A stretch of 64,000 nt of DNA from assembly GCA_011319805.1 (NCBI GenBank), contig SJRY01000312.1:1-64000 (forward strand), written 5' to 3'. Both the position numbers and the translations under genes were made by a program. This DNA comes from Macrocybe gigantea. Lineage: Eukaryota > Basidiomycota > Agaricomycetes > Agaricales > Callistosporiaceae. The notes below the pieces were generated by a model, which saw nothing but the letters and a program-made list of their open reading frames with translations, was not told the DNA's origin and did no database searches. Shown here piece by piece: positions 11,304 through 61,959 of the stretch; position 1 is the first letter of the stretch, and every line of letters begins with the position of its first letter.

Positions 11304-11370
11304 ACAAGTATATAACACGTGCCGCTGGCACTTTTATGCCCCCCGGCCTTTTGTAACACACTTTAAATAT

Positions 11371-14300
11371 TCAATCCAATAGTACTTCATTATATACAAA
11401 GTTTTTAGTTACACTATCTATCTTGTCTGCTTCCCATATTGCTTTAATGTTATGTACTGATGTTACCCGTGATATAGCAACATAAAACTGACCATGAGTG
11501 AAAACCGGTGTATGTAAATCCAGCCCAATATGTGTTACTGATTGGCCTTGTGACTTATTGATTGTCATAGCAAAGCATAAGCGAATGGAAAATTGAAGCC
11601 GAGTGAGTGGAAATGGCACTTGTCCTTCTGGCAGCTCATGCTTGATATGTGGGATAAAGATCAACTCTCGTGCATGATCACCTGTGATGAGCCTGAGCTC
11701 TAAAACATGATTACGGATCCAAGTGATGATTCCCCGACTCCCATTGCAAACACCATGGCTTGTATCCAGATTGCGCAACACCATGACAGGACAGCCTATT
11801 TTGAGAGCCAGCTTGGCCAGTGGCAGTCCTGAGCAATTGATAGAGTTCAAATACTCCACTGGATACAGAAGCTGTTCACCATTATTGCTTGTAGGAACTG
11901 AATCAGCACTGTGAAAGACTTGCTCTGCTCCAGGAAAGTCTCTGAGAATGTAATGGTTCAGAGAGTCCACATCGTCATTGCGGCTAGACAGAATGGTGCG
12001 AGCAGAAAAGTATTGCTGTGGATTCTGGATAGGAGTGTTGATATTGGGATAGATGGTTTGAATAAGAGAAGCAACAGTGTTGTGTTCACAGTGAAAATGA
12101 TCAGGAAGGGTAATGTTGGCATCCATGTCTGTGTGCTGACCATGTCCAACTTGAAGTTGCCACTCTGCAAAAGCATGCTCTTCCAGATTATCGGTATTCA
12201 ATCGCATGTTTCTTCTTAAATGGAGGACTGTAATCTTTCTCCACAATTGAGAACATAGCATGCATGCACCTACTATCTCTGGACGGGATCCTTTTTCAAT
12301 GACAGAAAGAATCTGCTGAAAGTCTCCACCAAAGATGATGGTCAATCCACCAAAGGGTAGATGACTGCCTTGAATGTCTTGGAATGTGCGATCAACAGCT
12401 TCATGGATATGACGATGCTGCATAGGAGCCTCATCCCAGATAATAAGATCTGTTATACGAATCAGAGCAGCAAGTGGTGATGTCTTTGTGATGGTGCACA
12501 CAGTAGACTTATTGATAAGGATGGGGATTTTGAAACTCGAATGTGATGTGCGACCACCTGGAAGCAGAAGAGAAGCAATGCCAGAAGATGCCACACAGAT
12601 AACAATCTTGCCCTCAGAATGCAGACGATAGCAGAGAGTATGGTAGAGGAATATCTTGCCAGTGCCTCCTGGACCATGAAGAAAGAAGATCTGTCCTGTC
12701 TTGTTGGCAATAGCCTGTCTGAACTGATCAAAGGCATCTCTCTGCTCTGGATTCAACCTAGCCTCATTCTCTGCTGCCAATTGAGCCTGCTCCTCCTGAT
12801 CATAATTGTGCTGCTCTGCTATGAGATGATTTGCAATCCTTTCATTCCAATTCTGAGTGATCTGTGGCATGGATGGCCAATCCTTGAGAGAGCGGCGAGA
12901 AGATTGGAGAAGCTGATCAATGAGAAAGAGGCCATAATCCATGATGTCTTCATCTGAGGGATTGACACAGATGTTGTCATGCTCAAGATGATAGCGTAGA
13001 TCATCACAGATCTGGGGCCAATATGTGTTCCATAGAGCAGCAGGATCTGAAGGATTGCAATCTCTCAGAATGGTGACAAAGAGGTGGCGAAGCTGACGAC
13101 CGGTTTGCATAGCAGCTGCTTCACGTAAACACTGATCCCACTCCTGATCATCTTCAAGAAGGCCACGTGCAAGACAGGCATCTTTGAAAGAAGGGTGTAT
13201 GACTTCTTCATATGTGCAAAGGTCTTCAAAAGATGTTGAGCCTGTGACCTGGGTCAAAAGAAGTCGAAGATAGAAGCGATTGCCTGATGTGGGAGGAGCA
13301 TAATTCATGCGGCCTATAGCAAATCCTCTCTGTCTGGGCTTCCACTCATGCTTCTTGTTGAACACAAACTGGGAAGGAAAGTCCTGATAGAGCACAGTGG
13401 ATGCTGTATCGGGATATTTGACATTGGCCTTGAAATAGGCAGTGAGAGTGGAATCCTGCCTTCCTCCTCGCAAAAAGACCTCTGGCATTGACTCTTGACC
13501 ATCCTGCCTCCAAGTGACAAACTGCTCATCTGGAAGGTGAACCTGCAACCATATGACATTGGGTGCTTGGCCATGAAGTGGACATTGGAAGATGCGCCAA
13601 AGACTTTCACATGCAGAGACATAGCGTGCATCCAGATACTGCCTGACTTCATCACCCACAATGCCAAACTGCATGGAGACCCGGTCATGACCCTTGTAAA
13701 CATATTTGTAGATGTATTTGACTGCTTTGATAGATGCAATGCACTCCACATTGATATGGCACTGGTACTTTCAGATAAGCCAGGGAGAACAAGAAACGAC
13801 CCAGCAATTATCGACCTGCTTGCCTCGAACATCATGGGCATGACTGGTGTCTCGACGACGGGTGGCAGCATATGCATTGTCAGTGATGGTGGTATGCTCT
13901 CTGAAGGGCTTTGGAAAGTTCTTGGTGCATTTGCCATTTTCCATGCATTGAGCTCTGGGATTTTCTGCACCGCATGGTGTGTGTTACAGACGTCGCCCAA
14001 AGGACTATTCATTTTCTTATCTTATCTTCCCACATCCCTTATCTCCCCTGTCATGCTGCGCAGCGCGCAGCCATCGAGTCATCTCACTTCCCTAGTCATC
14101 CTGAGTCATCTCCTTCCAGTCTTACTCATCCGCAGTCCACAGCATTGCGCAGCCCATGGTCCGTGCTCGAGTACTGTAATGTATATAAGGGCTCCCAGAT
14201 GTACCAGTAGCGCTAGGCTTAATATTCCTTTTGCCATCATCTCAAGACCACTCTCGCACTTAGTCTGCCCGAGTCCTTCTGAGATTCGTCTAGCCTAACA

Positions 14301-16619
14301 GTGTGTAGACCATGAACTTTTTGATCAGCTCAAGCAGTTCAGGATTGTCCTCTGGGAATTCAGAAGAGAGTAGACTGTCGATATGCTCAGGAGTCTGAAG
14401 TTTAGACTCTGGATCAAGAAAGAGGATGCAGTGCATGTGAGGCAGGCCATGTTTCTGAAACTCAATGACAAAGAGATAGGCTATGACCTTGCCAAAGACA
14501 CCTTTTTTGATGTCCTCAATCAGCTCATCCTTTTTGTGATAAAAGACTCGGATGACCAAATCTGGATGATCAGCTGCTGTCTGGCCAGGCAAAAGCTCGA
14601 CAGTAATTTCTGTCCAGTTTGGATTGGCAGTCATAGTGATGAAGAGATCTCCACCATGACAGAAACGATTGATGGCCAAAGCATCCTGAAGAAGCTGCTG
14701 CATGTTTCTGGTGCTTCCTGCAAAGGTAGCAGGCAGAATGATTCTGCGGCCCAATTCCTCTGTACTAACATCCACATTGGCAGCCACTGCATCAGCCAAT
14801 CCAGCATAAATGTCTCCTCGGATTGTGTTCTGGTTGTGCCAAACCCAATGCAAGTGACTCTGCTCTGCAGTAGCCCAGACATCACAGACAAACTCTTGAA
14901 AGAGCTTTTGAGAGAGAAAGAGATGCTGAGAATCAATGGCAGGAGGACGGGGATGGAGGCGGTAGTAATAAAACTGGACCTTGGAAACGTATCTGCATCG
15001 TATTGTAGTAGTGTTGCCATTGACCTCAGCCTCTTCCTCTGGAGCTTCCTCTGGAGCATCTGGCAGCTGTGCATTTGCATTGACATGCTGCAAAGCATCA
15101 GCTTGGTTGTAGAGAATTTTAGAATGCCAACTGAGCTGTCCAGTAGGAAAGAGCAAGACAAATCGGAGGGCTGGATAGAATGGATGGATGTCTGAAATGC
15201 GCTGGAGAGGTTCACCAAATCGGCGGTACAGAATAATGTCCCGAGCACTCTCGAGTTGATCACCATCACCTGGCAGAATGACAGCAATTTCATTGGTAGT
15301 GGGCATATTATAGCGACGGTGATCAGTAGTATCCTCCAATCGCAATACAATTCTGCACTGGTGATCTTCTGGCATATTTCTGGTTTGCTCATATGCCTGC
15401 CGATATAACTGCACCCCTGGATGACAACGATAGAGCATATCTTGCACAGTGCGAAGAGTCATAGGATCAAGATGGGTATTCCACTGGTTTGTGATACGGA
15501 AATTGTGAGCATCATCAGGATCATAGATGTAGAGCTGGGCATAGACAGGTGGCTCTCCAGGAGGAGGAAGAAGAGACCCAGCTCTGTGAGAGAGCTCTCC
15601 ATGAAGTCTAAACACATAGGGAGCATTTCCATTGGCCTGAAGAGAAGCATCAACTCTGCGCCCAATTGATACCATTGCAAGTGCATTGTTGTAGTTGCGA
15701 ATGTGTTTACGGAAATTGTTTGCAATGGGATTTTGCTCAGAGAGCAAAGTCAAAAGTTCAGGAGGTGGGTGATCCAGAGCAGGAAGTACAATTTTGCCTT
15801 GATAGCAACATATGCCAAACTTGGGGTTACGAATTGAAGACTTGACTAAATGCTCAGAGATCCAATGCAGTGCATGACAGAAAGAACATTCAATGTTCAT
15901 TCTACCCATGTTATGCTGAGGCCAATTGAGATCAAATGGGCGATGTGCCAATGGTAGAATAGTGACAATAGGCAGTGGTGGCAGAGGAGGTGAAGGGGAA
16001 GGTGGTGGTAGTGAAGGAGAAGGCAATGGTGGTGGTAAAGGAGCAAGTGGTTGAATAGGTAGTAAAGGCTAAATGCAAACTGTTATTGATTGAAATCAAT
16101 CTAGCTTATTAGAAAAAATGACATACAGCATGAGAGGCAGCAGGAATGGCAGCAGAAGCAATAGAAGGAGGCATAGGAGGCAATAGCAGTGGTAAAGGAG
16201 CAGGTGGTTGAACAGGTGGTAAAGGCTAAAAGTCAATCATTATTTATTGTAATCAATGTAGCTTATTAGAACAAATAACTTACAGGAGCAATAGAGGAGC
16301 GCATGGGAGGCAATGCAGCCAATGCTTGCTGTAAATGAGCAGGAAGATGCCTATAAATAGGAGCAGCAGCAGCTTGAGGAACAGAAGCATGTACAGGAAG
16401 GGTTCTGCAAATACGCCTCACAGGTTGAAGCTCTGGCAAAGCATTCAACTGTGCACGCAGTTCAGCAACAGACAGAGCATTGTAAGGCAGTGGCATAGCA
16501 ACAGGATTGTCAGGAACATGAGCAGATTCAGCAGGCAGAGGAGGCACAGCAAAGGGATCATCAGAAACATGAGCAGGTCCAGGAGGCACAGGAGGCACAG
16601 GAAGAAGCAGAGGAGTCAC
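11371..16619 (-). pseudogene. Helitron Rep-helicase, copy A
   Basis: Rolling-circle replicase-helicase of Helitron A. A Pro/Ala-rich N-terminus is encoded by short exons (introns near 16225-16283 and 16068-16127). The Rep part (from 16026) has the HUH-type HGLPHMHCIL and, after the LTR, the tyrosine motif KYIYKYVYKGHD. The helicase part has the P-loop GPGGTGKIFLY, IIWDEAPM, GGDFQQIL, TINKSQGQSV and HGQFYVAISRV. Lesions: a solo LTR at 13982-14300, TGA at 13771-13773 (reverse strand), and Ile in place of the conserved Thr after the P-loop Lys (12652-12654). From 13749 to 11371 the helicase frame is open (792 codons). All three lesions are also in copy B. Confidence 0.85.
13982..14300 (+). mobile_element. 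Solo LTR (family beta) in Helitron A
   Basis: 319 bases, TGTTACAGAC...GCCTAACA, flanked by exact GTGTG duplications (13977-13981 and 14301-14305). A TATA-like TGTATATAAGGG sits about two thirds along, giving plus orientation, opposite to the host gene. Deleting it with one GTGTG restores the Rep frame FMVYTPCGAENPRAQCM. No internal retrotransposon sequence remains. Confidence 0.85.
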
Positions 16620-18268: not shown

Positions 18269-21200
18269 TTGGACAGTCCTCATCGTCATTGGATTGTGAC
18301 TCCTCTGCCTCTTCCTGTGCCTCCTATGCCTGCTGGACCTGCTCATGTTCCTGACGATCCCTTTGCTGTGCCTCCTCTGCCTGCTGAACCTGCTTATGTT
18401 CCTGATAATTCTGTTGCTGTGCTACCACTTCGCAATGCTCTGTCTGTGGCTGAACTGCGTGCACAGTTGAATGCTTTGCCTGAACTTCAACCTATGCAGC
18501 GTATTCGCAGAACTCTTCCTGTACATGCTCCTGTTCCTCAAGCTGCTCCTGCTCCTATTTATAGGCATCTTCCTGTTCATTTACAGCAAGCTTTGGCTGC
18601 ATTGCCTCCCATGCACTCCTCTGTTGCTCCTGTAAGTTATTTTTTCTAATAAGCTAAATTCATTACAATAAATAATGATTTACTTTTAGCCTTTATTGCC
18701 TGTTCAACCATCTGCTCCTTTGCCTCCTATGCTTCCTTCTATTGCTCCTGCTGCTGCTCCTGCTCTTTCCTATGCTGAATTGGCTGCTCGATATGCAAAT
18801 TTGCCTCCTTTGGCTGCTCCTGTATGTCATTTTTTCTTATAAGCTGGATTAATTTCAATGAATATTGTTTATTTTTAGCCTTTGCGACCTGTTCAACTGC
18901 CTGCTCCTTTACCACTGCCATTGCCTCCTATGCCTCCTCCTGTTGCCTCTCATGCTGAATTATCTTTGCCTGCTCCTGTACGTCATTTTGTCTAATAAGC
19001 TAAATTGATTTCAATAAATAACAATTTGCCTTTAGCCTTTACCACCTATTCAACCACTTGCTCCTTTACCACTGCCATTGCCTTCTCCATTGCCTTCTCC
19101 TTCACCACCACCACCTTCTCCTCCTCCTCCTCTGCCACCACTGCCTATTGTCACCAACCTACCCCTGGCACGTCGCCCATTTGATCCCAATTGGCCTCAA
19201 CATGATATGGGTAGAATGAACATTGAATGTTCTTTCTGTCATGCACTGCATTGGATCTCTGAGCATTTAGTCAAGTCTTCAATTCGTAACCCCAAGTTTG
19301 GCATATGTTGCTATCAAGGCAAAATTGTACTTCCTGCTCTGGATCACCCACCTCCTGAACTTTTGACTTTGCTCTCTGAGCAAAATCCCATTGCAAACAA
19401 TTTCCGTAAACACATTCGCAACTACAACAATGCACTTGCAATGGTATCAATTGGGCGCAGAGTTGATGCTTCTCTTCAGGCCAATGGAAATGCTCCCTAT
19501 GTGTTTAGACTTCATGGAGAGCTCTCTCACAGAGCTGGGTCTCTTCTTCCTCCTCCTGGAGAGCCACCTGTCTATGCTCAGCTCTACATCTATGATCCTG
19601 ATGATGCTCACAATTTCCGTATCACAAACCAGTGGAATACCCATCTTGATCCTATGACTCTTCGCACTGTGCAAGATATGCTCTATCGTTGTCATCCAGG
19701 GGTGCAGTTATATCGGCAGGCATATGAGCAAACCAGAAATATGCCAGAAGATCACCAGTGCAGAATTGTATTGCGATTGGAGGATACTACTGATCACCGT
19801 CGCTATAATATGCCCACTACCAATGAAATTGCTGTCATTCTGCCAGGTGATGGTGATCAACTCGAGAGTGCTCGGGACATTATTCTGTACCGCCGATTTG
19901 GTGAACCTCTCCAGCGCATTTCAGACATCCATCCATTCTATCCAGCCCTCCGATTTGTCTTGCTCTTTCCTACTGGACAGCTCAGTTGGCATTCTAAAAT
20001 TCTCTACAACCAAGCTGATGCTTTGCAGCATGTCAATGCAAATGCACAGCTGCCAGATGCTCCAGAGGAAGCTCCAGAGGAAGAGGCTGAGGTCAATGGC
20101 AACACTACTACAATACGATGCAGATACGTTTCCAAGGTCCAGTTTTATTACTACCGCCTCCATCCCCGTCCTCCTGCCATTGATTCTCAGCATCTCTTTC
20201 TCTCTCAAAAGCTCTTTCAAGAGTTTGTCTGTGATGTCTGGGCTACTGCAGAGCAGAGTCACTTGCATTGGGTTTGGCACAACCAGAACACAATCCGAGG
20301 AGACATTTATGCTGGATTGGCTGATGCAGTGGCTGCCAATGTGGATGTTAGTACAGAGGAATTGGGCCGCAGAATCATTCTGCCTGCTACCTTTGCAGGA
20401 AGCACCAGAAACATGCAGCAGCTTCTTCAGGATGCTTTGGCCATCAATCGTTTCTGTCATGGTGGAGATCTCTTCATCACTATGACTGCCAATCCAAACT
20501 GGACAGAAATTACTGTCGAGCTTTTGCCTGGCCAGACAGCAGCTGATCATCCAGATTTGGTCATCCGAGTCTTTTATCACAAAAAGGATGAGCTGATTGA
20601 GGACATCAAAAAAGGTGTCTTTGGCAAGGTCATAGCCTATCTCTTTGTCATTGAGTTTCAGAAACATGGCCTGCCTCACATGCACTGCATCCTCTTTCTT
20701 GATCCAGAGTCTAAACTTCAGACTCCTGAGCATATCGACAGTCTACTCTCTTCTGAATTCCCAGAGGACAATCCTGAACTGCTTGAGCTGATCAAAAAGT
20801 TCATGGTCTACACACTGTTAGGCTAGACGAATCTCAGAAGGACTCGGGCAGACTAAGTGCGAGAGTGGTCTTGAGATGATGGCAAAAGGAATATTAAGCC
20901 TAGCGCTACTGGTACATCTGGGAGCCCTTATATACATTACAGTACTCGAGCACGGACCATGGGCTGCGCAATGCTGTGGACTGCGGATGAGTAAGACTGG
21001 AAGGAGATGACTCAGGATGACTAGGGAAGTGAGATGACTCGATGGCTGCGCGCTGCGCAGCATGACAGGGGAGATAAGGGATGTGGGAAGATAAGATAAG
21101 AAAATGAATAGTCCTTTGGGCGACGTCTGTAACACACACCATGCGGTGCAGAAAATCCCAGAGCTCAATGCATGGAAAATGGCAAATGCACCAAGAACTT

Positions 21201-23744
21201 TCCAAAGCCCTTCAGAGAGCATACCACCATCACTGACAATGCATATGCTGCCACCCGTCGTCGAGACACCAGTCATGCCCATGATGTTCGAGGCAAGCAG
21301 GTCGATAATTGCTGGGTCGTTTCTTGTTCTCCCTGGCTTATCTGAAAGTACCAGTGCCATATCAATGTGGAGTGCATTGCATCTATCAAAGCAGTCAAAT
21401 ACATCTACAAATATGTTTACAAGGGTCATGACCGGGTCTCCATGCAGTTTGGCATTGTGGGTGATGAAGTCAGGCAGTATCTGGATGCACGCTATGTCTC
21501 TGCATGTGAAAGTCTTTGGCGCATCTTCCAATGTCCACTTCATGGCCAAGCACCCAATGTCATATGGTTGCAGGTTCACCTTCCAGATGAGCAGTTTGTC
21601 ACTTGGAGGCAGGATGGTCAAGAGTCAATGCCAGAGGTCTTTTGCGAGGAGGAAGGCAGGATTCCACTCTCACTGCCTATTTCAAGGCCAATGTCAAATA
21701 TCCCGATACAGCATCCACTGTGCTCTATCAGGACTTTCCTTCCCAGTTTGTGTTCAACAAGAAGCATGAGTGGAAGCCCAGACAGAGAGGATTTGCTATA
21801 GGCCGCATGAATTATGCTCCTCCCACATCAGGCAATCGCTTCTATCTTCGACTTCTTTTGACCCAGGTCACAGGCTCAACATCTTTTGAAGACCTTTGCA
21901 CATATGAAGAAGTCATACACCCTTCTTTCAAAGATGCCTGTCTTGCACGTGGCCTTCTTGAAGATGATCAGGAGTGGGATCAGTGTTTACGTGAAGCAGC
22001 TGCTATGCAAACCGGTCGTCAGCTTCGCCACCTCTTTGTCACCATTCTGAGAGATTGCAATCCTTCAGATCCTGCTGCTCTATGGAACACATATTGGCCC
22101 CAGATCTGTGATGATCTACGCTATCATCTTGAGCATGACAACATCTGTGTCAATCCCTCAGATGAAGACATCATGGATTATGGCCTCTTTCTCATTGATC
22201 AGCTTCTCCAATCTTCTCGCCGCTCTCTCAAGGATTGGCCATCCATGCCACAGATCACTCAGAATTGGAATGAAAGGATTGCAAATCATCTCATAGCAGA
22301 GCAGCACAATTATGATCAGGAGGAGCAGGCTCAATTGGCAGCAGAGAATGAGGCTAGGTTGAATCCAGAGCAGAGAGATGCCTTTGATCAGTTCAGACAG
22401 GCTATTGCCAACAAGACAGGACAGATCTTCTTTCTTCATGGTCCAGGAGGCACTGGCAAGATATTCCTCTACCATACTCTCTGCTATCGTCTGCATTCTG
22501 AGGGCAAGATTGTTATCTGTGTGGCATCTTCTGGCATTGCTTCTCTTCTGCTTCCAGGTGGTCGCACATCACATTCGAGTTTCAAAATCCCCATCCTTAT
22601 CAATAAGTCTACTGTGTGCACCATCACAAAGACATCACCACTTGCTGCTCTGATTCGTATAACAGATCTTATTATCTGGGATGAGGCTCCTATGCAGCAT
22701 CGTCATATCCATGAAGCTGTTGATCGCACATTCCAAGACATTCAAGGCAGTCATCTACCCTTTGGTGGATTGACCATCATCTTTGGTGGAGACTTTCAGC
22801 AGATTCTTTCTGTCATTGAAAAAGGATCCCGTCCAGAGATAGTAGGTGCATGCATGCTATGTTCTCAATTGTGGAGAAAGATTACAGTCCTCCATTTAAG
22901 AAGAAACATGCGATTGAATACCGATAATCTGGAAGAGCATGCTTTTGCAGAGTGGCAACTTCAAGTTGGACATGGTCAGCACACAGACATGGATGCCAAC
23001 ATTACCCTTCCTGATCATTTTCACTGTGAACACAACACTGTTGCTTCTCTTATTCAAACCATCTATCCCAATATCAACACTCCTATCCAGAATCCACAGC
23101 AATACTTTTCTGCTCGCACCATTCTGTCTAGCCGCAATGACGATGTGGACTCTCTGAACCATTACATTCTCAGAGACTTTCCTGGAGCAGAGCAAGTCTT
23201 TCACAGTGCTGATTCAGTTCCTACAAGCAATAATGGTGAACAGCTTCTGTATCCAGTGGAGTATTTGAACTCTATCAATTGCTCAGGACTGCCACTGGCC
23301 AAGCTGGCTCTCAAAATAGGCTGTCCTGTCATGGTGTTGCGCAATCTGGATACAAGCCATGGTGTTTGCAATGGGAGTCGGGGAATCATCACTTGGATCC
23401 GTAATCATGTTTTAGAGCTCAGGCTCATCACAGGTGATCATGCACAAGAGTTGATCTTTATCCCACATATCAAGCATGAGCTGCCAGAAGGACAAGTGCC
23501 ATTTCCACTCACTCGGCTTCAATTTCCCATTCGCTTATGCTTTGCTATGACAATCAATAAGTCACAAGGCCAATCAGTAACACATATTGGGCTGGATTTA
23601 CATACCCCGGTTTTTACTCATGGTCAGTTTTATGTTGCTATATCACGAGTAACATCAGTACATAACATTAAAGCAATATGGGAAGCAGACAAGATAGATA
23701 GTGTAACTAAAAACTTTGTATATAATGAAGTACTATTGGATTGA
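18269..23744 (+). pseudogene. Helitron Rep-helicase, copy B
   Basis: Same protein as copy A. The N-terminal region has three introns of about 58 bases (starting near 18631, 18821 and 18978), each followed by an exon opening with CCTTT(A/G) and coding for Pro/Ala-rich sequence; copy A has two. The Rep frame 19078-20826 and the helicase frame 21603-23744 hold the motifs listed for copy A. Shared lesions: solo LTR 20816-21134, TGA 21343-21345, P-loop Ile 22461-22463. A private lesion is a T-run of four (21640-21643) where A has five, which shifts frame at the Rep-helicase junction. B is therefore more decayed than A. Confidence 0.85.
20816..21134 (-). mobile_element. Solo LTR (family beta) in Helitron B
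   Basis: Same 319-base LTR at the homologous position as in copy A, flanked by CACAC (20811-20815 and 21135-21139). Same site and same duplication mean it was inserted before the two Helitrons became separate copies, or was copied by conversion. Confidence 0.85.
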
Positions 23745-23820
23745 ATATTTAAAGTGCCAGTGAGCATCAACAAAAGGCCGGGGGGCATTAAAGTGCCAGC
23801 AGCACGTGTTATATACTTGT

Positions 23821-24401: not shown

Positions 24402-27400
24402 ATGGGGCACCAGTTCTTTGTCTGCAAATGCACGTTGCATCCAGGAGGGCATTCTGTCCCTAAGGTGGACAGAGTTAAACACGCTCTGGAGCTCAGAGGA
24501 TTGGAACACCAAGTATGCTCAGTTCCCGTCGTCTCTTAGATCTTGCTCATCGAATCAAAAACAGCGCCAGACAAGTGACGCTCCGCCTGGCTTTGACGTA
24601 TCTCATAAGTGTGCGGAAAACCAGATCCGTAATATCCAAGATGGTACACGTGAACCTTGCGATCCTCCGAACAGCCCAAGCCTTTCCTCCCGCCTTGCCG
24701 CGCTGCAGATTGCGGACGGAAAATCCAAGATCAGCAATGACCAAATCCATGAATCCTACATCGACGTCATCTTAGCTAATTCCCTCATGGCAGTTACGCT
24801 TACGGATCGCCATGCTATGTCGCCGGAGCAGGAGGACTCGTCGGTCAACATACCTTCTCCAGCCAATCCGCCATCAGTTGCGCGAACCGTTTCCTTGGCC
24901 GATGCCCGTTCTAGCGTACAAGCTATCATTAATGAGGAGCATAATGCAAGGCCTTCACCTTCATCTGAGGCTCCTTTCAGGCCCAAACCTCCTGCAGCTC
25001 GAGTCAGAAAGGCCCAAGATATCATTTCAGTAGTCGAGGGCGACGTGCGAGCAATTGCAAAGACCCTGTCTTTTGAAGATGGCCTGCCAGAAGCATACGT
25101 GTTTCACCCTCTGTTGAAAACCGCGAGCAAAACAGTTGAATGCACGGGAAAATCTCTAGCTGCTGTCAAGTCGACCGATGAGGATGTAATTGCGCACAAA
25201 GGGGAAGTTATGAAGCTGCTTAGAACTCTCGATTCCCGGGTTAGTGAACTAGGAGGTTTGGTGCCCCGGGGACACTCCGACCAAACACCAGTCCCCATCA
25301 ATTCAGGTGCGAATTTCCGAATCTTGCTCTCTCTCTGTTGCTTGACGTGTCTCTGTATACAGATATTGTCATCAGGAATCCTGTCGCCGTGCTGGACGTC
25401 ATTGCTCAAATTGTCGTAGTCCTTGGCGTGATATGCCACGTCATCATGGGTGTCAGTACAGAAACCGCTGAATTCATCATCAACAGCGCCATTCTGTTGG
25501 TGAAGCTAGCTTTTGCCACTACCCATTCTACGTCGACCAGCCTTGAATATCACGGCTTTCAGCAATCTGTGTTGAAGCAACTTCCGACGAGTTTGTACAC
25601 AGCACTCAGCAAATTTGATATCGACAGCGAAATTGTGGTGTATGCGACTTGCCCTTCCTGCAAGTACACTTCCAAACCCACTTATGATCCTGTCTCCGCC
25701 ATCGCTTCCTACCATCAGCATTGCCCCAATCGCTTAGTGGGGCCTGAAGGCCCCTATATTTGTGGTGCTTCTCTTTTAGAGGCGAGGAGTGGCCGTCTTT
25801 CTCCCGTCAAGCCGTATGCGGTCTCATCTTTCAGAGATTATCTGGCGAGGTTGCTTGCTGATAGCGAGCTGGAGCGGCACTGCAATTCGGCGTGTGATGA
25901 AGCCTTTGCTGCATTAGGAAAAGATACAGATCACACAGAGAGCATTTTTCACGCGGAATTCATGCGGTCGTTTGAAGGGCCGGTTCCTGGACAACTCTTC
26001 ATCGACCGGGGCGGGAAGATGAGACTTGCGTTTGTGATGCATGTCGACTTTTTCAATCCAAACGGTGTGCGGGAGCGTGGAAACCACAATTCCATTGGTA
26101 TTGCATCGTTGGCGTGCCTCAATCTTCCAGAAACCCTCCGATATGAGCCGGAGAACCTCTACCTCGCAGCCATTATCCCTGGGCCTCAGCAACCTCAAGC
26201 GGAGGAGCTCGCTCATTTTATCCGACCTATTATTGACGAGTTTCAAGTTGGATGGAAACCTGGCTTTCATGTGTCTCGCACTGCATCATCCCCGAATGAC
26301 GGACAAGACGTAAACGTTGCCATCGTCCTCTCCCTCAATGATCTTCCCGCCGCTCGCAAAATTTCCGGTTCAGCGGGTCATGGATCTCATTTCCTTTGTA
26401 CGCGATGCAAGTTACATGGCCGTGCTAATCTTTACAATATCGACATCGAAAACTGGGCCCTCCATGATACGGCAGAACTGCGGCGAAAGGCGGAAGAATG
26501 GCGCGATGCTACTACCCTTCAGGAAAGAAAAACTATTTTCGATTCATGTGGAGTGCGTTGGTCGGAATTTTGGAGGCTATCCTACTGGAATCCATCACAA
26601 ATGCTTGTCGTTGACCCCATGCATTGTCTTCTTGAGGGACTGGTGCATTATCACTGCCGATACGTCCTGGGAATCGATGCGGCGCAAGCCAGAGCTCCAT
26701 GCCCTCCATCACCAGCATTTTCGCATCCTTGGGTTGAATACACTCCTTACGTACCCGCAGATTATCACGTTCGGAACGATGCAGAGATCAAGCAAGTCAA
26801 AGAAATCCATCAGATTCTAATGCTTCCAATTAATGCTGGCCCCGAAACACTTGATGAAAAACATCTCCTGAAGAAATTGATCGGCAAGAACAAGATGCCG
26901 CTCAAATTTGTATGCTATACCCTCGAACTGCTCAACGATGCAAATTTGCCTGACGGTGCGTCAGTGTCCTCGATGACGAAGCAAGATTTTGGGGAAATGT
27001 TGGTTAAATGGGTAAGCCAGGTGATCCAGTAAACGTACCATACCTGATATTTTACTTAGCGGCTCTCTATGCCATTGTCGACCAACACTAGCACAATCCG
27101 AATCTGTACGCCTGACACAATTGCATACATTCAAAGCATCATAAAAAATACCATAACTCCATCTTGGATCAACTCCGTACCTAAGAACTACGGTGAAGCG
27201 AACGCCGGATCCATCAAAGCCGACGAGTGGCGCATCCTTTCTACCATCTATCTTCCGATCGCGTTCATTACTCTTTGGGGCGACGGCACAGCTTATCCGC
27301 TAGTGCAGGACAATCCCTTGATCAAGATTCTTGACCATACGATGGCGCTTTTCCAGGCTGTAACTCTCATATGTCGTGATGCTATGACCATAGATCGTGC

Positions 27401-53060: not shown

Positions 53061-53099
53061 TCATTCAACCCAGGATGAAAGGACTAAGATGGGTAGGGA

Positions 53100-54876
53100 A
53101 AAGTGTAGAAGTGAAGGAAGCGACTCACCGATGAATTTGACGCACACGTCCTGATCGAACCCTTTGACGTGCAACCACTCCACGACATCTTCGACGGTCC
53201 ACTCGCTTGGATGTGCCTTCTCCTTCTCTCCTTCCCTCCTCTCTTCCACAAGCGTGTTCTGCTGGGACGATGTCTGACCCGCCACGCTCCCTGACCCTCC
53301 AATTCCAGCACCACCGCCACCGAAACCAGATTCCCGCGCGGGCGACGCCGAGGAACGGCTGTCGTGCTTTGACTGAACGTGTCCCCCAGGAACGGAGCCG
53401 GCGAACGATGTCGTGGGCGAAGGTAGGGCACCGAGCGACTCGCGCATAGGCGTCTCAGCTCGCGGCATCTCCGGGCTGGTCGTCGTAGTGGTGCCAGTGG
53501 CTGTAATCGAGGAACTCACGTATGTCCCGGGTGGGGATGCGAACGGGTTAGAGAACGTCCCGGAGGGCGGGGAGGGCGGTGAAAGAGACGAAGCGGCACT
53601 TATGCTCGCGTTGAGGGGTGGCTGAATCGTCCGTATGCTGTATTCGTTCTCGACGAGCGGGACCTCAGGCGAGGGTTGCACGGCAAATGTTGCCTTTGGA
53701 ACCGTCGCCGTCTTCACGTCGTATTCGTCATGCTCTGGGATTACGAGATTTACGGACTGAACCGACGCGGACGAGCTGCGCTTGATAAATCTCTCCTCTT
53801 GCACACGCGCCTGGCCGTCCATTGCCGGGCCTTCTTCTTCGTCCTCTTCGGGGATGAAAGGGTGAGTTCTGGAACCTGACCGCATCACGAAATCGTTCTC
53901 TTCCACATCGCTCTCGTCGCTCAGCTCGACATCAATCGGAGGCGCAACCATCCTCGTACCTCACCTCTCCCGCGTCCTATCGCCCGCACTGGTGCCCATG
54001 CTTCCCTCTCGTCCTTCGACGTCACTCAAATCGAATGCGTCCATATCGGTGTCAGTCTCGCGGTCCGTATCCCGCTCGTCGTGGGAGCTGGCAAAGCTAA
54101 AGCTCCGCGTGTCGCCGTCCTCGGCCCTGCTACGATCCCCTCCGCCTAGTTGCTCAATCGCCTGCTGCACATCCGTCATCGTCGCGCGCATGACTTCGCC
54201 GTCTCCATCTCCGTCTCCATCTGTTTGAGTGGCATTGGCAGCGTTGGGTGATGCGGCCTGGTCAGTGCTGCGCGCGAGTCCTCCGTCATCTGCAGCGGAA
54301 CCGGTCTCGTTCGGGTGGCTATTTGCGAGGCTTGCAAAGTCTAGAGGTGCATGCGGGACGGGGGCAATGACGGTGGTGTCATCTTGATAGTCTGCATCCG
54401 CGGATTTAAGGTTAGTGGTGTCGGTAATGACGGTGATGATGGTGTTGAACGTCTGATGGACAGAGGACGTGGCGGCGTCTAAGAGGGCGGAGGGTGCGGC
54501 GTGGGTGGACTCGGGAGAAGATGCTGCAGTGGTGTAGCTCAGAGGAAAAAGTCCGACCTTTCCTGCAAGGTTGCGGCCCTGGAAGAGTGAGTGTAAATAC
54601 GTCGCTGTAGGCATATAGGATGCGGATAAAAGGAAGGTAAATCGGATGTATAAGAAAAGGTGGATAGGAAGAGACATGCCATCCGCATGTCTTTATAAAA
54701 CGTTTTGGGAAGAGGAGGTGATATAGAGGAGGGAGGAGAGAAGGACTTACTTGCCACCATCCGTCTCCGTAGAGGTCATCCTTCTCGACGACCTCGATTC
54801 TCTCACCCGCACGAAAAGCAATCTCGTCGTCGTGCTCTGGCTCAAAGTCATGCAGCGCATAGACGAATTCAGGCAT
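53100..54876 (-). pseudogene. SH3-SAM scaffold protein (Boi1/2- or Pob1-like), truncated
   Basis: Exon 1 starts MPEFVYALHDFEPEHDDEIA and runs to YGDGWWQ. A ~180-base intron follows, then GRNLAGKVGLFPLSY completes a canonical SH3 domain (ALHDF, DGWW, G..GLFP). A long Ser/Thr/Asp-rich linker contains one in-frame TGA at 53961-53963. It ends in HPSEWTVEDVVEWLHVKGFD, the first half of a SAM domain, at a GTGAGT donor near 53125. The rest of the SAM domain and the PH domain expected in Boi/Pob1 polarity scaffolds were not found. The stop plus missing C-terminus suggest a pseudogene; the alternative is a short SH3 protein ending at 53961. Confidence 0.65.
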
Positions 54877-55398: not shown

Positions 55399-56070
55399 TT
55401 AATCATCGTGATATCTCGAGCTGCCGACGCTGTTGGCTTCTGCGGCATCTACCTCCTCCAAAAGCTCTTGCTCCAGGTCAGCATCCCCATCGAGATCGAG
55501 AACAGTCGTGGCACGGTGAACGTTGTCGACGCTGCGTTCGCGCGATCCCCCAGTCTCAACAGCCTTCTCGATCTCCGCCTTGACTTCCGCTTCAGCCTCC
55601 GCGTCCATATCGACGTCCTCGCCGTCTGCATCACCCGTCGTGACCCCGTCATCGGTGTCTGCAAGGTGCGCTGTGATGAACGGCGAACACGACGCCTGCC
55701 AGCTGTTGTTGCCATCCAGCGAGCGAACGCTGAGCGCGTCCAGTCCCGCACGCGATTTCTTCACCTTTGGGCTCGCCCGCCCATGCCGGCATCGCTGCGT
55801 GAGACGCCGCACACTGGCTCTGGTGCGGGTGAGGATACGAGCAGGAGGCGAGCACCGGGGAAGCTTCGCCGCCGCGCGCACCAGAAGACGTGTGCAGCTA
55901 GTCATCTTCGCCGAGTGGACCAGAATGGTGCGGGCTCGGCGGCGTTTTGACAGCAGGCTTGGCCGCCTTGCTATATACGGCAATCCCACACGATTCGTAG
56001 CGTGCATCCACGATTCGTGGATTTCGGGGATTTCCACTGGATATCCACGAGACTTGCCAACACTGCTATA
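55399..56070 (-). CDS. Acidic C-terminal ORF, possibly third exon of the H3-tail/PHD gene
   Basis: A minus-strand frame of 223 codons is open from a possible acceptor (TTAG before 56070) to a stop at 55399. Its first part (YSSVGKSRGYPVEIPEIHES) follows the PHD exon in the correct phase across a 44-base intron. Its end is strongly acidic (DADGEDVDMDAEAEAEVKAE). The DNA at 55990-56060 contains repeated ATCCACGA motifs, so part of it may be simple repeat rather than coding. No domain recognised. Confidence 0.35.
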   Translation of the reverse strand, partial: YSSVGKSRGYPVEIPEIHESWMHATNRVGLPYIARRPSLLSKRRRARTILVHSAKMTSCTRLLVRAAAKLPRCSPPARILTRTRASVRRLTQRCRHGRASPKVKKSRAGLDALSVRSLDGNNSWQASCSPFITAHLADTDDGVTTGDADGEDVDMDAEAEAEVKAEIEKAVETGGSRERSVDNVHRATTVLDLDGDADLEQELLEEVDAAEANSVGSSRYHDD

Positions 56071-56114
56071 CTAACCTCGTCAGTCTAGGCCGTCCATGTT
56101 TGAGAATAACTTAC

Positions 56115-56549
56115 CGGATAAGGCTTCCAAACATGATCAACCTTTTGTTTTTTTGCCTCATCTCTCCTGCGCCTCATCCTGGTAACCCAGCAAGCCGGGC
56201 AAATGGCTTTGGCATCCTTGGCCACTGGGCGGGGAACAGGAACGCAACTGGCGCACATGACTTTGGGGCAAAAATCGCACTCCAGTACATCTCCTCCATC
56301 ACCGCAACCTCCACACCACTAGAAAAGCATGGCATTAGCTGAGTTTTATTAAAAGTGATAAATACTTGCAATTCGAGGATTTTTCTCAGTGGCCTCTGGT
56401 AACTTAGCCTGAGACTGTGCGATTCTGGCTGATTTACGTGCTTTCTGAGCAGCTGGGACACCCGTGGTTACATCGGAAGGATCCCCTAGAGGCTTCTTGG
56501 GCGCAGTTGCTCCAGTGCTCTTCTTAGCGGTTTGACGAGTGCGGGCCAT
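56115..56549 (-). CDS. Histone H3-tail mimic fused to a PHD-type zinc finger
   Basis: Exon 1 (56549-56370) begins MARTRQTAKKSTGATAPKKP. The first residues track the histone H3 tail ARTKQTARKSTGGKAPRKQ, with K4 replaced by Arg and R8 by Lys, while K9, S10 and the following motif are kept. A basic linker follows (QKARKSARIAQ). A 51-base intron with a GCAAGT donor (GC-AG type) and a CTAAT branch-like motif leads in phase to exon 2 (56318-56115): WCGGCGDGGDVLECDFCPKV, MCASCV..ICPACW. The spacing C-x2-C-x8-C-x2-C-x4-C-x2-C then C-x2-C suits a PHD-like finger, a domain class that often binds H3 tails. A GTAAGT donor ends exon 2. There is no histone fold, so it is not an H3 gene. Self-binding or competition for H3 readers is my inference. 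Confidence 0.7.
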
Positions 56550-56719
56550 AGGGGAGCAGGTTATAAACGTTGGGTTGCAGTTGGATTCTCATTTGTTAAA
56601 GGGTTTTTATACGTGCTACTGGCCTACCATGACTTTTTGGGCACAAGAGGCCCAACGATATGTCGTCTATTTTACGTGTATCATAGCTAAAATCATCGCA
56701 CCGAGCATGTCAGATCAAG
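56550..56719. other. Probable 5' region of the H3-tail/PHD gene
   Basis: Short stretch upstream of the start at 56549 (minus strand). No clear promoter element was recognised. Confidence 0.3.
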
Positions 56720-57530
56720 AGCGAAGGTTGGCCCTTCCCTTGGCACAGTCTGACAGGTGGCCGGCATCAATCCGAAGCGCATAGCCATGCCTCATGCAAC
56801 CACCCACTGGCGGTGCTGGGCCGAAGCATGCCACGCAACAATGACGCAAAGGGTATGAACAGCCCTTCGCATCACGCCCATGGGTTGATGGTTGCAATGC
56901 AATGTAGCATGGGGGACATGGACCGTCCACCCTCACAGCATCATTATTGACCAATGATGCTGGGCCACAAGATGCCCCGAAGGGATGCACGGAAAGCATG
57001 GGCGGCTTTCCCCACGGCGCTGCCATTGACAGACCACGCCGGGCATATGAAAATGGCACTGCAACACCACATAGAGAGCATGGACAACTCCCTTCAACGC
57101 GCCGCCATGGACAGACGGCGCGGGTGTGATAGTTACAGCGCTATGCGGCCGATCTGATGGAGATGAATTCAAGTGAGCTCGTAATCCCGACGTGATGCGT
57201 AGAGCCAGGGGTGACTCATTCACACCAGTCAAGGATCAGCAGGCACACTTGCCTCCAACATGCCTGCATGAGAAGCATGGGCAGCTTCCCTCATGGTGCT
57301 GTCATGGACCGACATCACCAGGCGGACAAAAACGGCACGCAAACACCACGTGGAAAGCATTGACAACTCTCCGCACCACGCCGCAATGGACAAGCGGCGC
57401 AGGGTGATGGCTGCGGTGCAATGCGGCCGATCTGATAGACATCAAACAAGTCAGCCCAGAATCCAACCCCTGATCCAATGCGTAGAGCCAGGGGTGACTC
57501 ATTCACACTAGTCAAGGGTTGGAGTTCATG
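56720..57530. repeat. Tandem ~290-base repeat array
   Basis: Two clear units (about 57050-57235 and 57345-57520) share GCGGCCGATCTGAT and TGCGTAGAGCCAGGGGTGAC with CATTCACAC. A more diverged third unit precedes them (56790-56950). ORFs on both strands across it are by-products of the repeat. Confidence 0.7.
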
Positions 57531-57769
57531 ATCAAGTTAGTTGGAGGGCACGCCCACTCTGAAGAGGCTGGAAGGAGAAGCATGGTGAGCGTTGAATGCA
57601 AGCATGGATGACGTGGCACGGATGTCAGCTAGAAATTATCAACATGGTCACATGCTTCAACCCTGCATCAATCTCGCTTATCTTGCCTGCGTACTGATGG
57701 CGCTTTCGAGGGGGACTTTTTTGATCTCTGCTAATCTAGGGGAAAAGATGGAGTATGAAGGCAAAGAAG

Positions 57770-58640
57770 AAGGAAAAACGCAAAGAAACATACCTTTGAA
57801 TGTCGCCGCTGGACGACAACGATGACGACGCAGGCGATGCATGGAGGGGGCACTCAAGCTGACGTGGTGGGAAGGGTGTAGGCCGTGAGCATGGGGCACG
57901 GGAGTCTAAGCTGGAATGGCAATGCCAGCATTAAGAAAAGGTATGAGGGAGAAACAGAAAAGGGGCTTACATTGATAGTAGAAGAAAGCGTGAATGCTGA
58001 TGAGGCCGACATAATCTCCAGACGAGCACAGAAAACCGGACAGGGTTGTCCTTGCGATGAACGAAGAGCTGGCGTGAATGCGAGTCTCTCAGCTACCCGT
58101 CGCGTCGGACATGGCTTCCGGCGAGGAAGCAACGGATCCATGTCTGTGTTGAAAAGGCTAACTAATCGGGATGGGGGTGCAGGGGATGAGGAAATCTTGA
58201 GTCGACGAGAAAAATCGTGATAAAATCAGAAGAACTCACTGTTGAACACCGTTAGAGACGACACTAATGCTGACGTGAAGAGCTGCGTGTCACAACGCCG
58301 AATGCCTATGGCGACGTGAGGCGTTGGTGCATGGAGTGGTGAGTGTTGGAGGCGGCGGGTGAGGGGACGATGGACGGAGGGAGTGTTGGACGGGGTGAGG
58401 GGGCGGGGCGATGGGGGATGCTGTGACGCGATGAGAAGAAAGAAAAAAGAACTCACTTTTGAAGGTCGCTGCTTGGACGACGCCGATGCCTACGTGAAGA
58501 GTGGGGAGGCGGGATTGGAGGCGGTGTAGCAAGGAGAGTCGAAGCTGTGACGCGGTGAGAAGACGAGAAAGAAAAAAAAAAAAAGAAAAAGAACATACCT
58601 TGGAAGAGTGAGTGCTGGAGGACACCGATGGCGACGTGGA
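57770..58640 (-). repeat. Tandem array of splice-donor-like units
   Basis: On the minus strand, GTCGTCCA-type sequence followed by TTCAA(A/C) and a GT(A/G)(T/A)G donor with a T-rich intron start recurs near 58600, 58450, 58235 and 57795, with a weaker one near 57970, at 150-260-base spacing. Each looks like an exon end plus donor. Either a gene region with duplicated exons or a minisatellite that mimics one; no domain is visible in the candidate exons. Confidence 0.5.
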
Positions 58641-59394
58641 AGGCGCTGCAGGGGAATGTTGGAACCAGCATGGCGGCAAGGGGAGGCATCTGACGCGACA
58701 ATGCCAGCCGGAGGGCCTGGGACGGCGGGGCGTGGGTAGGGACTTGGGAAGACAATGACGGCGCGCCAGTCATCGTCGTTCGTCATCTCCGCTATCGGCT
58801 CGGCGGGGCTGGTGGGTGGCCTGGGCAGGGAGGGGAAAGGGGAGACGACAACGACGACGCACCGGTCATCGTCGTCTCCGTTGGGCATGGCTGGGGGAGT
58901 GGTCAGCGGAGGAAACAGTGAGAGATCAAAGAGATCATGCTGCCGATGACTCACCTTAGCTCTCCGAGATGACGAGAAAGTGAAGGGGAGAGAAAGAGAT
59001 ACGCTAGAAGTTGGAGGTCGACAAACAAGGGCCGTTATCTTCCCCGAGCTTGTCGTCGCCATCATCTCATCCCGCTCTCTGCCCACCACTGGCCCATCAC
59101 GCCCGGCTGAGGGCAGTGGCGCGTCAACGATGAGGTTTCACTGTCTCCCTCCGCCCCCACCAACTTCCCTCGCGTCACCGGCCAGACGACGATGACGGGC
59201 AGTCGTACCACCTCCCAGCCTCCAGCACTGCCTAGCTCCCAAGACGGGGAGACGACGATGCAAGCCGACAATGTTCGATGACGCCCATCATCTGCCAATG
59301 CTGCCACATAGCACTGAACTGCGGCGTGCATTCCATGTCCGATACATGACGCTCGAACAGACACACGAGCAAGTGCAGATCATGATCGCTCGTA
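58641..59394. other. GC-rich intergenic, nothing recognised
   Basis: Simple GACGA/TCGTC-rich stretches and overlapping ORFs on both strands without known motifs. Confidence 0.4.
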
Positions 59395-61959
59395 TTGACA
59401 TGGCCGACCGTATTGCAACACCGAAAGCGGAAAACACGACGACGAGTGACTGACGCGCCCTTGTTGCTTCGCACATTCAATCCTGATTCTAGTCATGTAC
59501 ATAATAACTCCTCACCTAATACAGAGCCTGCACAACAAAACTATGCCGTGCATGAGATTGAGATGTTGGCGGGTGTAGAGACCATGCTGCGACATCGCGA
59601 TATCCTACAGGGTGTTCAGTTTCAGTGGATCACGGATCACAAAGGACTCCTCCACCTGCTAGATCAGAAGAACCTGTCAGGGCGACAGGCGCGCTGGTTA
59701 GAAAAGATTGGTGAATTCAATTTTAAAGTCGTCTACATACCTGGTGTGGAAAACGTGCTCGCAGATGCCTTGTCCCGCCTGTATGCCAATGATAATCCTG
59801 GCACAATACGTGCAGTCTCAGAATATACTCAACATGATGACACTATGCGTGCCTTCATGGTACTTGAGGTGTCAGACCCGCTCCTTGTTGGCGCGGATGC
59901 ACTGGAGGCTGTAGTGCATTGGGATCCCACCATAGGACAGGTCGCTGCGCTTCCTAGGGGAGAATATGCTCCTGAGTCATCGCGAAAAGGTACAGCGGTC
60001 AGGAGGGTGAGGAGAGGCTTACCCGCCGCTGAGACTGGCCGCCCGGAGACAGCTAGGGAATTTGCAGCACGGATGCGGCCGCTTTTTCGGATCCAAGGCC
60101 CTAGGACAGCGTCAGCACAGCCAAAGGCGAACAACACAGAGCGAGGAACCTCACCTGTGGTCAATAGGATGGTGGGGAGTCGTCGTTTCGTTCTTCATGG
60201 ACCTAGAGATCGAAAGGAGGGTGAGGTGTTGGACTCATCCGAGCAACAGCGGGAAAACTCGGACCTACATGGTAGACAGGCTGAGCCACCTGCTCTGGAG
60301 CAAGAGGAGGAATCATCCCAGCCCATGGAGAATGTCGCCCATAGCCAGAACGAGGAGGTTGAAGGTCAAAATGAAGACGTGGCAGATAAACATGGACCTA
60401 CAACCCAGTGGCGGCTTACCTCAGCCATGGCACCAGCTGAGGCTCCCTCAAGCCTGTTACAGCTGGCAGAATCTAACGGAATCGACATCTTGAAGGAGTT
60501 CCATCGCCGTTATGAGGAAGACTCATTCTTCCAGATGATACTGGAGAGTCCTCGTGATTTCAAGAACTTCATCATTAAAGATGGATTAATCTACATAAAA
60601 TTGCATGACCGAATTCTGCTATGCATACCGAAGATTACCGTGAATGGGCGGAGCACACGCGAAATAATTATCGCGGAAGCTCATTCCCTACTCGCACACC
60701 TCGGCCCAAGCAAAACGATTGATTACTTGCGAAGCCAGGTGTGGTGGAAGGATCTTGTGCCAGATACACAGGCATATTGCAAGTCCTGTATGACCTGTCA
60801 GAAGAGTAAGCCGTTGAACCAGAAGCCCTATGGCTTGCTGAATCCCTTACCAGTGCCTACACAACCTTGGGAGGCCATAGGCATTGACTTCATTGGTCCG
60901 CTCCCTGAATCCTCCAATCGCGATGGGAAATTCGATTGTATTACGACAGTCATTGACTTGCTCACCTCCATGGTCCACTTGATTCCGAGCCGGACGAATT
61001 ACAAGGCGCGTCATATTGCTGAATTGATGTTCGAACATGTCTACAAGCTACATGGGCTACCGAAAGCCATTATCAGTGATCGTGATGTGCTTTTCACGAG
61101 CACCTTTTGGGCTCACCTAAATAGCCTCATTGGTACGACACTTAAGATGTCGAGCGCTTACGATCCAGAGACAGACGGTTCTACTGAGCGAGCCAATCGT
61201 ACGGTGACGCAGATGCTGCGCCACTGCATTTCCCCGAAACAGCATGATTGGGTAGGGAAGCTACCTGCAATTGAGTTCGCAATTAATTCTGCCCGTTCCG
61301 AGACCACGGGATATGCACCATTTTATTTGAACCATGGTCGGATGCCTCGCGCGATGATATGGGATGCCCCTAACTCGACTGAATATCCGGGAGTGCGCAC
61401 CTTCGCACAGCAGAAAAAACTGGCTCTCATGGAGGCGCATGATGCCATACTTGCTGCGCGGGTGAAACAGACGCGTGATGCCAACCGGAAGAGGCGGCAT
61501 TGCCCCTTTGAAGAGGGTAACTTGGTCTATATCTCGACTAAAAACCTATCATTTGCAAAGGGATTAGCTAGGAAATTTATTCCGAAATTTATCGGACCCT
61601 ACCGGATTATGAAGGACTTCGGGAATCAATCCTTTCGGATAGAGCTCCCTAGCCATCTGCGACAGCGTGGGCTGCATGGTGTATTTCATGCCTCGCTCCT
61701 GCGGATCCATATGCCCAACGACGACCGGTTGTTTCCGGGGCGGTTGGACACGGACCCAGAGGAAAACGAATGGGCCGTCGATGAGATCGTCGGGCACTCT
61801 GGTACTCGAGGGGATGCGATTTTCAAAGTGAAGTGGAAGTCAGGGGACATGACATGGTTGCCATACGATCAAGCTACACACCTGCATGCCTTGAACGCCT
61901 ATTTCGAGTCATTAGGCATTAGAGGGATCGGAGAATTGCCGCTAGGGCATGAAAATTGA
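59395..61959 (+). pseudogene. Ty3/gypsy chromovirus pol, 3' half (RNase H, integrase, chromodomain)
   Basis: Retrotransposon polyprotein missing protease and reverse transcriptase; the homologous part starts at about 59525. RNase H: QNYAVHEIEMLAGVE, ITDHKGLLHLL, GVENVLADALSRL. A long acidic linker follows. Integrase: zinc-binding AHSLLAHLG with YCKSCMTCQ, catalytic Asp in GIDFIGPLPE, Asp in IISDRDVLF and Glu in TDGSTERANRTV. The GPY/F module is FIPKFIGPYRIMKDF. A C-terminal chromodomain WAVDEIVGHSG..KVKWKSGDMTWLPYD closes the frame. From 59525 to the stop there is no interruption. No 5' LTR, gag or RT upstream: the element is 5'-truncated. Confidence 0.88.

Follow-up and report, generated by a model that had tools for sequence, protein, structure and literature searches.

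The gene that opens at 56549 on the minus strand of the window (the whole stretch of DNA analysed here, bases 1-64000 of contig C310) is predicted to encode a near copy of the histone H3 N terminus joined to a PHD-like finger. On the evidence of its sequence it represents the 5' portion of a host gene that was duplicated recently and whose product is probably a nuclear protein. The gene is real and unusual; its kind, histone mimicry, is already known, and its mechanism is unproven. The reading preferred here, with a probability of roughly 0.4 when taken as a whole, is that the probably captured H3 N terminus and the finger of the duplicated host gene may serve as a docking decoy for the pockets that hold H3 tails. 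The features are listed in Table 1.

Table 1. Modelled parts of the mimic gene and its flanks in the window, and the two intact copies of the gene.
Feature	Coordinates	Strand	Description
Exon 1	56549-56370	minus	ATG at 56549; 60 predicted codons, MARTRQTAKKSTG...NPRI
Exon 1 content	56370..56549	minus	ARTRQTAKKSTG, H3-tail mimic (mature residues 1-12), then basic linker
Intron 1	56319..56369	minus	51 nt; GC-AG (GCAAGT...CTAAT...CTAG), inferred by hand from the frame
Exon 2	56318-56115	minus	68 predicted codons, WCGGC...CDFC....CASC...CPAC...KPYP
Exon 2 content	56115..56318	minus	eight-cysteine PHD-like finger, then basic RMRRRRDEAKKQK stretch
Intron 2	56066..56114	minus	complete, GTAAGT...TATAG; homology with the other copies stops at its last base
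Post-break sequence	55898..56065	minus	unlike exon 3 in the other copies
5' flank	56550..59531		common to the window copy and both intact copies
Intact copy	C146:211501-213179		six exons, 474 aa, without stop or frameshift
Intact copy	C310:159230-160908		six exons, 474 aa, without stop or frameshift

The minus-strand ATG at 56549 opens the reading frame MARTRQTAKKSTGATAPKKPLGDPSDVTTGVPAAQKARKSARIAQSQAKLPEATEKNPRI, and 10 of its first 12 mature residues are identical to H3. K4R and R8K are the exchanges, while R2, T3, Q5, T6, A7, K9, S10, T11, and G12 are kept; this reading of exon 1 bears out the first-pass annotation, which had described an H3-like start with K4 changed to Arg, R8 changed to Lys, and K9 and S10 retained. 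The same annotation took K4R to be a block to K4 methylation of the mimic, which follows from chemistry. When the exon-1 peptide was shuffled 20,000 times, the highest count of H3 identities was 7 of 12, and the number of such starts expected by chance is 5e-7, a figure that assumes general amino-acid frequencies and 15,000 genes. The genome examined comprises 41.2 Mb in 333 contigs, and its short introns, CHAT genes, and kinds of transposon suggest a fungus. The uninterrupted pattern MARTxQTA has seven matches in it, three of them H3 genes (two on C40 and one on C233) and four of them copies of the mimic gene, and the backwards control of the pattern has none in the whole genome. The H3 genes on C125 and C120 escape the pattern because an intron splits the motif. 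The shuffles, the genome-wide pattern count, and the backwards control rule out a chance origin of the tail. Past residue 12 the likeness to H3 is not above that of shuffles (982 of 2000 exon-1 shuffles reach the score); the PDB search nevertheless aligned H3 to residues 1-44 and more. The classification of the product as an H3 mimic is based on this beyond-chance H3 segment in a protein whose first model, of 465 aa, has no Pfam family at E<=10. The genome also has what we read as a CenH3-like H3 variant (G000:C262:518579-519041), with a long divergent N terminus containing ATARKSTGG.

The stretch is present in four copies in the genome; the blocks extend over 1.8-3.5 kb and share 99.3-99.8% identity with the window. 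The sequence, the copies, and their open reading frames are seen directly in the assembly. The window copy corresponds to the 5' part of a 474-aa gene. Its match with the other copies ends at 56066, where intron 2 also finishes, and it therefore lacks exon 3 and everything beyond. If intron 2 were spliced, the window copy would gain 55 codons and a stop, for a conceptual tail-finger product of 183 aa. The break point at 56065-56066 coincides exactly with the intron-2 acceptor. The copy at C310:86926 breaks off within exon 3. The introns of the intact copies, assigned by hand, have lengths of 51, 49, 48, 52, and 57 nt, and the last four are GT-AG; beyond the tail and finger the intact gene has 346 further residues, which fall outside every family searched. 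The tail and finger are protein-identical in all four copies, the three coding differences in exons 1 and 2 being synonymous. Between the intact copies there are six codon differences, five of them synonymous and the sixth I/V; under neutrality, with a neutral nonsynonymous share of 0.75, one or fewer nonsynonymous differences in six has P=0.005. At 6 in 1425, the coding divergence between these copies is close to that of the aligned block (99.585%, 7951 columns), and therefore the case for selection rests on the six sites.

The duplicon common to the two intact copies has a length of about 9 kb. The 5' flank includes two direct repeats of approximately 250 bp, at 56986-57234 and 57265-57517, which are 75% alike. 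Self-comparison of either intact locus found no terminal repeats of at least 60 bp, and only the internal repeats of approximately 250 bp were seen; a mobile-element gene was rejected on the lack of such terminal repeats around the intact loci. The C146 copy holds an insert of roughly 1.3 kb, with inverted ends seen by eye, and at the edge of the duplicon a 229-bp stretch is inverted between the intact copies (L007:1862-2090 vs L006:2090-2318).

Elsewhere in the window, two 5-kb stretches (11304-16290 and 18815-23820) form an inverted, Helitron-like pair with 98.3% identity, with a PIF1 helicase domain in the frame at 11371-13749 and a matching frame at 21603-23744 in the partner stretch. A Tnp2-family transposase frame is found at 25338-27032 (Pfam E 1.2e-11) and a match to the MULE transposase domain at 5958-6581 (E 1.4e-6). 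The Ty3-type pol frame at 59395-61959 has RNase H, integrase zinc-binding, and Tf2-1 SH3 domains as well as a weak chromo-like end; it abuts the 5' flank at 59531, the same base at which both intact copies diverge into different sequence. On the minus strand, the region 53061-54876 has an SH3 domain at 54412-54876 and then, at 53061-53951, a weak SAM match that falls short of the cut-off, and these frames perhaps belong to one intron-split scaffold gene.

No homologue outside this genome was found in protein databases and viral contigs, a search in which distant fungal relatives could be missed. The 128-aa tail and finger returned six candidates from the protein search, none at E<=0.001, and the 465-aa first gene model returned 4766 candidates, none at E<=1. 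A 464-aa query whose first part was the canonical H3 tail, chosen to reach relatives with an unswapped tail, gave 1814 of 5153 candidates at E<=10; among the 120 of these 1814 matches that were listed, each covers 7% of the query and carries the histone domain PF00125. The protein sources included nr, UniRef, and NCBI, with a word filter that would miss distant relatives. The viral contigs had one pattern match and no relative. Among the matches listed from open PMC titles and abstract starts, none described a fungal protein that begins like H3 and has a PHD finger.

The absence of relatives outside the genome in these searches is one of several observations consistent with the gene being a passenger of recent segmental duplications that makes no working protein, the tail and finger being remnants. 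Two of the four copies are truncated, intron 1 has a GC donor, the coding sequence has diverged about as much as the rest of the block, and the contig is rich in transposons and long repeats, with PIF1-helicase (Helitron-like), Tnp2, MULE, and Ty3-type frames in the window itself. Two copies, however, retain all six exons with neither stop nor frameshift, and five of their six codon differences are synonymous. Decay of this kind is considered unlikely, though it retains real weight.

The join of exon 1 to exon 2 needs a GC-AG intron, which is plausible. Its bases are ATT/GCAAGT...CTAAT...TTTTCTAG/TGG, in which CTAAT is branch-like, and on inspection of the locus no GT donor was seen that would keep the finger in frame. 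The frame of exon 1 resumes 51 bases on as WCGGCGDGGDVLECDFCPKVMCASCVPVPRPVAKDAKAICPACWVTRMRRRRDEAKKQKVDHVWKPYP and is followed by a GTAAGT donor; with the intron retained, translation would stop after residue 66. The finger scores E=0.025 and 15.0 bits against Pfam PHD (PF00628), below the cut-off of 24; at E<=10 the longer, 465-aa model matched no Pfam family, PHD included, and the mimic gene is absent among the 34 matches listed for a whole-genome PHD search. The nearest other place in the genome to the finger is at C227:831361 (E=0.01), which is itself a PHD finger (44.6 bits, PF00628).

Among solved structures the best matches of exon 2 are PHD and ADD fingers of the H3K4me0 type. CHD4 is first (E=0.00058), and its CKDGGELLCCDTC is resembled by CGDGGDVLECDFC of the finger. 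The 21 PDB sequences at E<=0.05 are from CHD4/5, TRIM24/33/66, PHF12, PHF21A, AIRE, and ATRX (ADD), whose fingers we take to be readers of H3K4me0. At E<=10 there are 35 distinct sequences, of which one, 9fhl_C, lies outside PHD/ADD; the other 34 are presumed from their names to be PHD or ADD proteins. The finger departs from the C4-H-C3 ligand pattern in that its eight putative ligands are all Cys (CGGC, CDFC, CASC, CPAC). While Cys in the place of the His ligand also occurs in ADD fingers, this and the Pfam PHD score below the cut-off are unlike H3K4me0-type PHDs. Among PHD hallmarks, the Trp that precedes the last Cys pair is missing, and the residue two before the first Cys, acidic in PHD pockets, is Ile. 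AlphaFold models built from the single sequence were too poor to use, with a pLDDT of 57 for the finger and of 50 for a construct of tail plus finger that included the intron as residues, and Foldseek had a single match, which was not a PHD (E=3.8). The finger is best described as PHD-like and closest to H3K4me0-type PHDs, with reading of H3 a possible activity. A PHD-like cysteine cluster in the second exon, as first annotated, is supported by the eight Cys and by the solved PHD/ADD relatives. The accompanying claim that one polypeptide carries both the tail and a potential reader stands in part: the single polypeptide is expected from all four copies if they are spliced as modelled, but the reader function is uncertain because several PHD hallmarks are missing.

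The same arrangement could allow the finger to bind its own H3-like N terminus, in cis or in trans, with autoinhibition or head-to-tail self-association as the outcome and with release by real H3 or by modification. The presence of tail and finger in one modelled polypeptide and the nearness of the finger to H3K4me0-type readers are consistent with such binding, although the finger is under the Pfam cut-off and without several of the expected pocket residues, and models of this low pLDDT are too poor for docking. A precedent is found in BAZ2B, in which intramolecular histone mimicry beside a PHD is described (PMC5663869). Self-recognition as the main role of this protein is nevertheless doubtful.

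Where the tail came from is a separate question, and capture from the 5' end of a host H3 gene is likely because the codons match. Over the first 13 codons, 30 of 39 bases agree with the H3 gene on C233, and nine of the ten shared non-Met codons are equal, compared to three of ten for each of the two H3 genes on C40. The codon match with C233 has P=4e-5, calculated from the codon usage of the mimic gene and six host CHAT domains and uncorrected for the comparison with three H3 genes; the intron-split H3 genes on C125 and C120 were left out of the comparison. A comparison with the sequence upstream of three H3 genes gave two 12-base matches, one of which is the coding start, and similarity in that region was rejected. 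An H3-like N terminus could instead have arisen independently under selection for docking, an explanation that concerns the origin of the tail and not its role. The nine differences from the C233 gene fall in three codons (K4R, R8K, and a synonymous change at S10) in which all positions are changed, unlike ordinary drift from a copy, and the H3 intron after STGG is absent from the mimic gene. With uniform placement the chance of this clustering is 1.3e-6, which ignores the forced two-difference K/R and TCN/AGY changes; part of the clustering follows from the K, R, and S codon families, and this is no full explanation. Set against codon identity with the C233 gene at nine of ten shared residues, independent origin is improbable, and capture is the likelier source of the tail.

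The C-terminal region of the intact gene has no Pfam (E<=10), PADLOC, or NCBIfam match, and a solved-structure search with it had one match, at E=0.39, of no use. By eye, its order is CVMLVIQTHSD (strand-His), LLYLSVCGG (strand-Cys), DLIAFTTP...GMSLERGF (strand and helix), and a Cys cluster, from which a caspase/CHAT-like region (clan CD) is a guess. The CHAT set of the genome (PF12770) is sizeable, with 26 matches over the Pfam cut-off among the 29 listed, and some of these may be pieces of one gene; the mimic gene is absent among the 29. Single-sequence hhalign against six host CHAT domains gave 16.1, a score exceeded by at least 8 of 60 shuffles (19.0-23.0). With no profile match and an hhalign score no better than shuffles, CHAT was not confirmed as the identity of the region. 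An integrated decoy and effector, in which the un-methylatable tail is bait for factors that target H3 tails and its engagement switches a diverged peptidase of caspase/CHAT fold, would suit the order of strand-like stretches and residues and a genome rich in CHAT, but is very improbable given the lack of any family match, the hhalign score within the range of shuffles, and the absence of the gene among the CHAT matches listed. Similarly remote is a fuller version in which the 5' end of the fungus's own H3 was captured, exchanged at K4 and R8, and fused to an ADD/PHD-like finger and possibly a caspase-like C terminus as bait that senses or competes with H3-tail factors, the truncated duplicates supplying a free tail-finger competitor.

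The docking decoy remains the preferred reading. In pockets that hold the H3 N terminus, the bound residues are Ala1, Arg2, and Thr3. Removal of the initiator Met would expose a free A-R-T-R N terminus, which could dock in H3-tail pockets, including those of K4me0-type PHDs, K4 methylases or demethylases, and possibly its own finger in cis or in trans. Since residue 4 is Arg and residue 8 is Lys, the tail would be a constant, K4me0-like decoy or tether that is non-methylatable: Arg4 would be closed to the enzymes that methylate lysine 4, and Lys8 would remove the R8 modification site. Docking may bring the C-terminal region to chromatin or hold it off, and any expression of the truncated window copy would provide no more than the tail and finger. 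Splicing, expression, docking, and function are all steps that we infer. If this reading is true, the exchange would leave a tail that is neither K4-methylated nor R8-modified; an H3-like N terminus closed to K4 methylation and set before a reader-like finger would be nature's equivalent of the K4-mutant tails with which H3K4 enzymes are probed in the laboratory, and the gene would illustrate how the beginning of a histone gene can come to serve as a docking tag.

Non-histone copies of the H3 tail that engage H3-tail readers or enzymes include G9a, SNAIL1/LSD1, and influenza NS1. To our knowledge, no mimic of this type combines a nearly exact H3 N terminus with a PHD-like finger of its own, and we know of no earlier example of a true N terminus with K4 and R8 swapped. 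These three are also named as histone mimics in the text or references of the BAZ2B report (PMC5663869). The statement in the first-pass annotation that no system of this form had been described was too strong in view of BAZ2B and of DPPA3/PAF15-UHRF1, because in BAZ2B a histone-mimicking linker competes with H3 for the PHD in its own chain. The PHD-linker-bromodomain arrangement of BAZ2B is like the present gene in having a histone mimic and a PHD in one polypeptide; however, the mimic in BAZ2B is a basic linker inside the chain, while here a true N terminus copies H3 1-12 with K4 and R8 exchanged. BAZ2B also has a bromodomain, for which the 465-aa model of the mimic gene has no match. In UHRF1 an acidic surface of the PHD binds ART/VRT motifs of H3, PAF15, and DPPA3 (PMC11187062). 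The short, ART-like VRT motifs dock on the PHD, and the motif of PAF15 is N-terminal, as is the tail of the mimic gene. In the DPPA3/PAF15-UHRF1 system the mimic and the reader are separate proteins, whereas in the modelled product of the present gene the two would share one chain and the mimicry is longer, extending to 10 of 12 residues.
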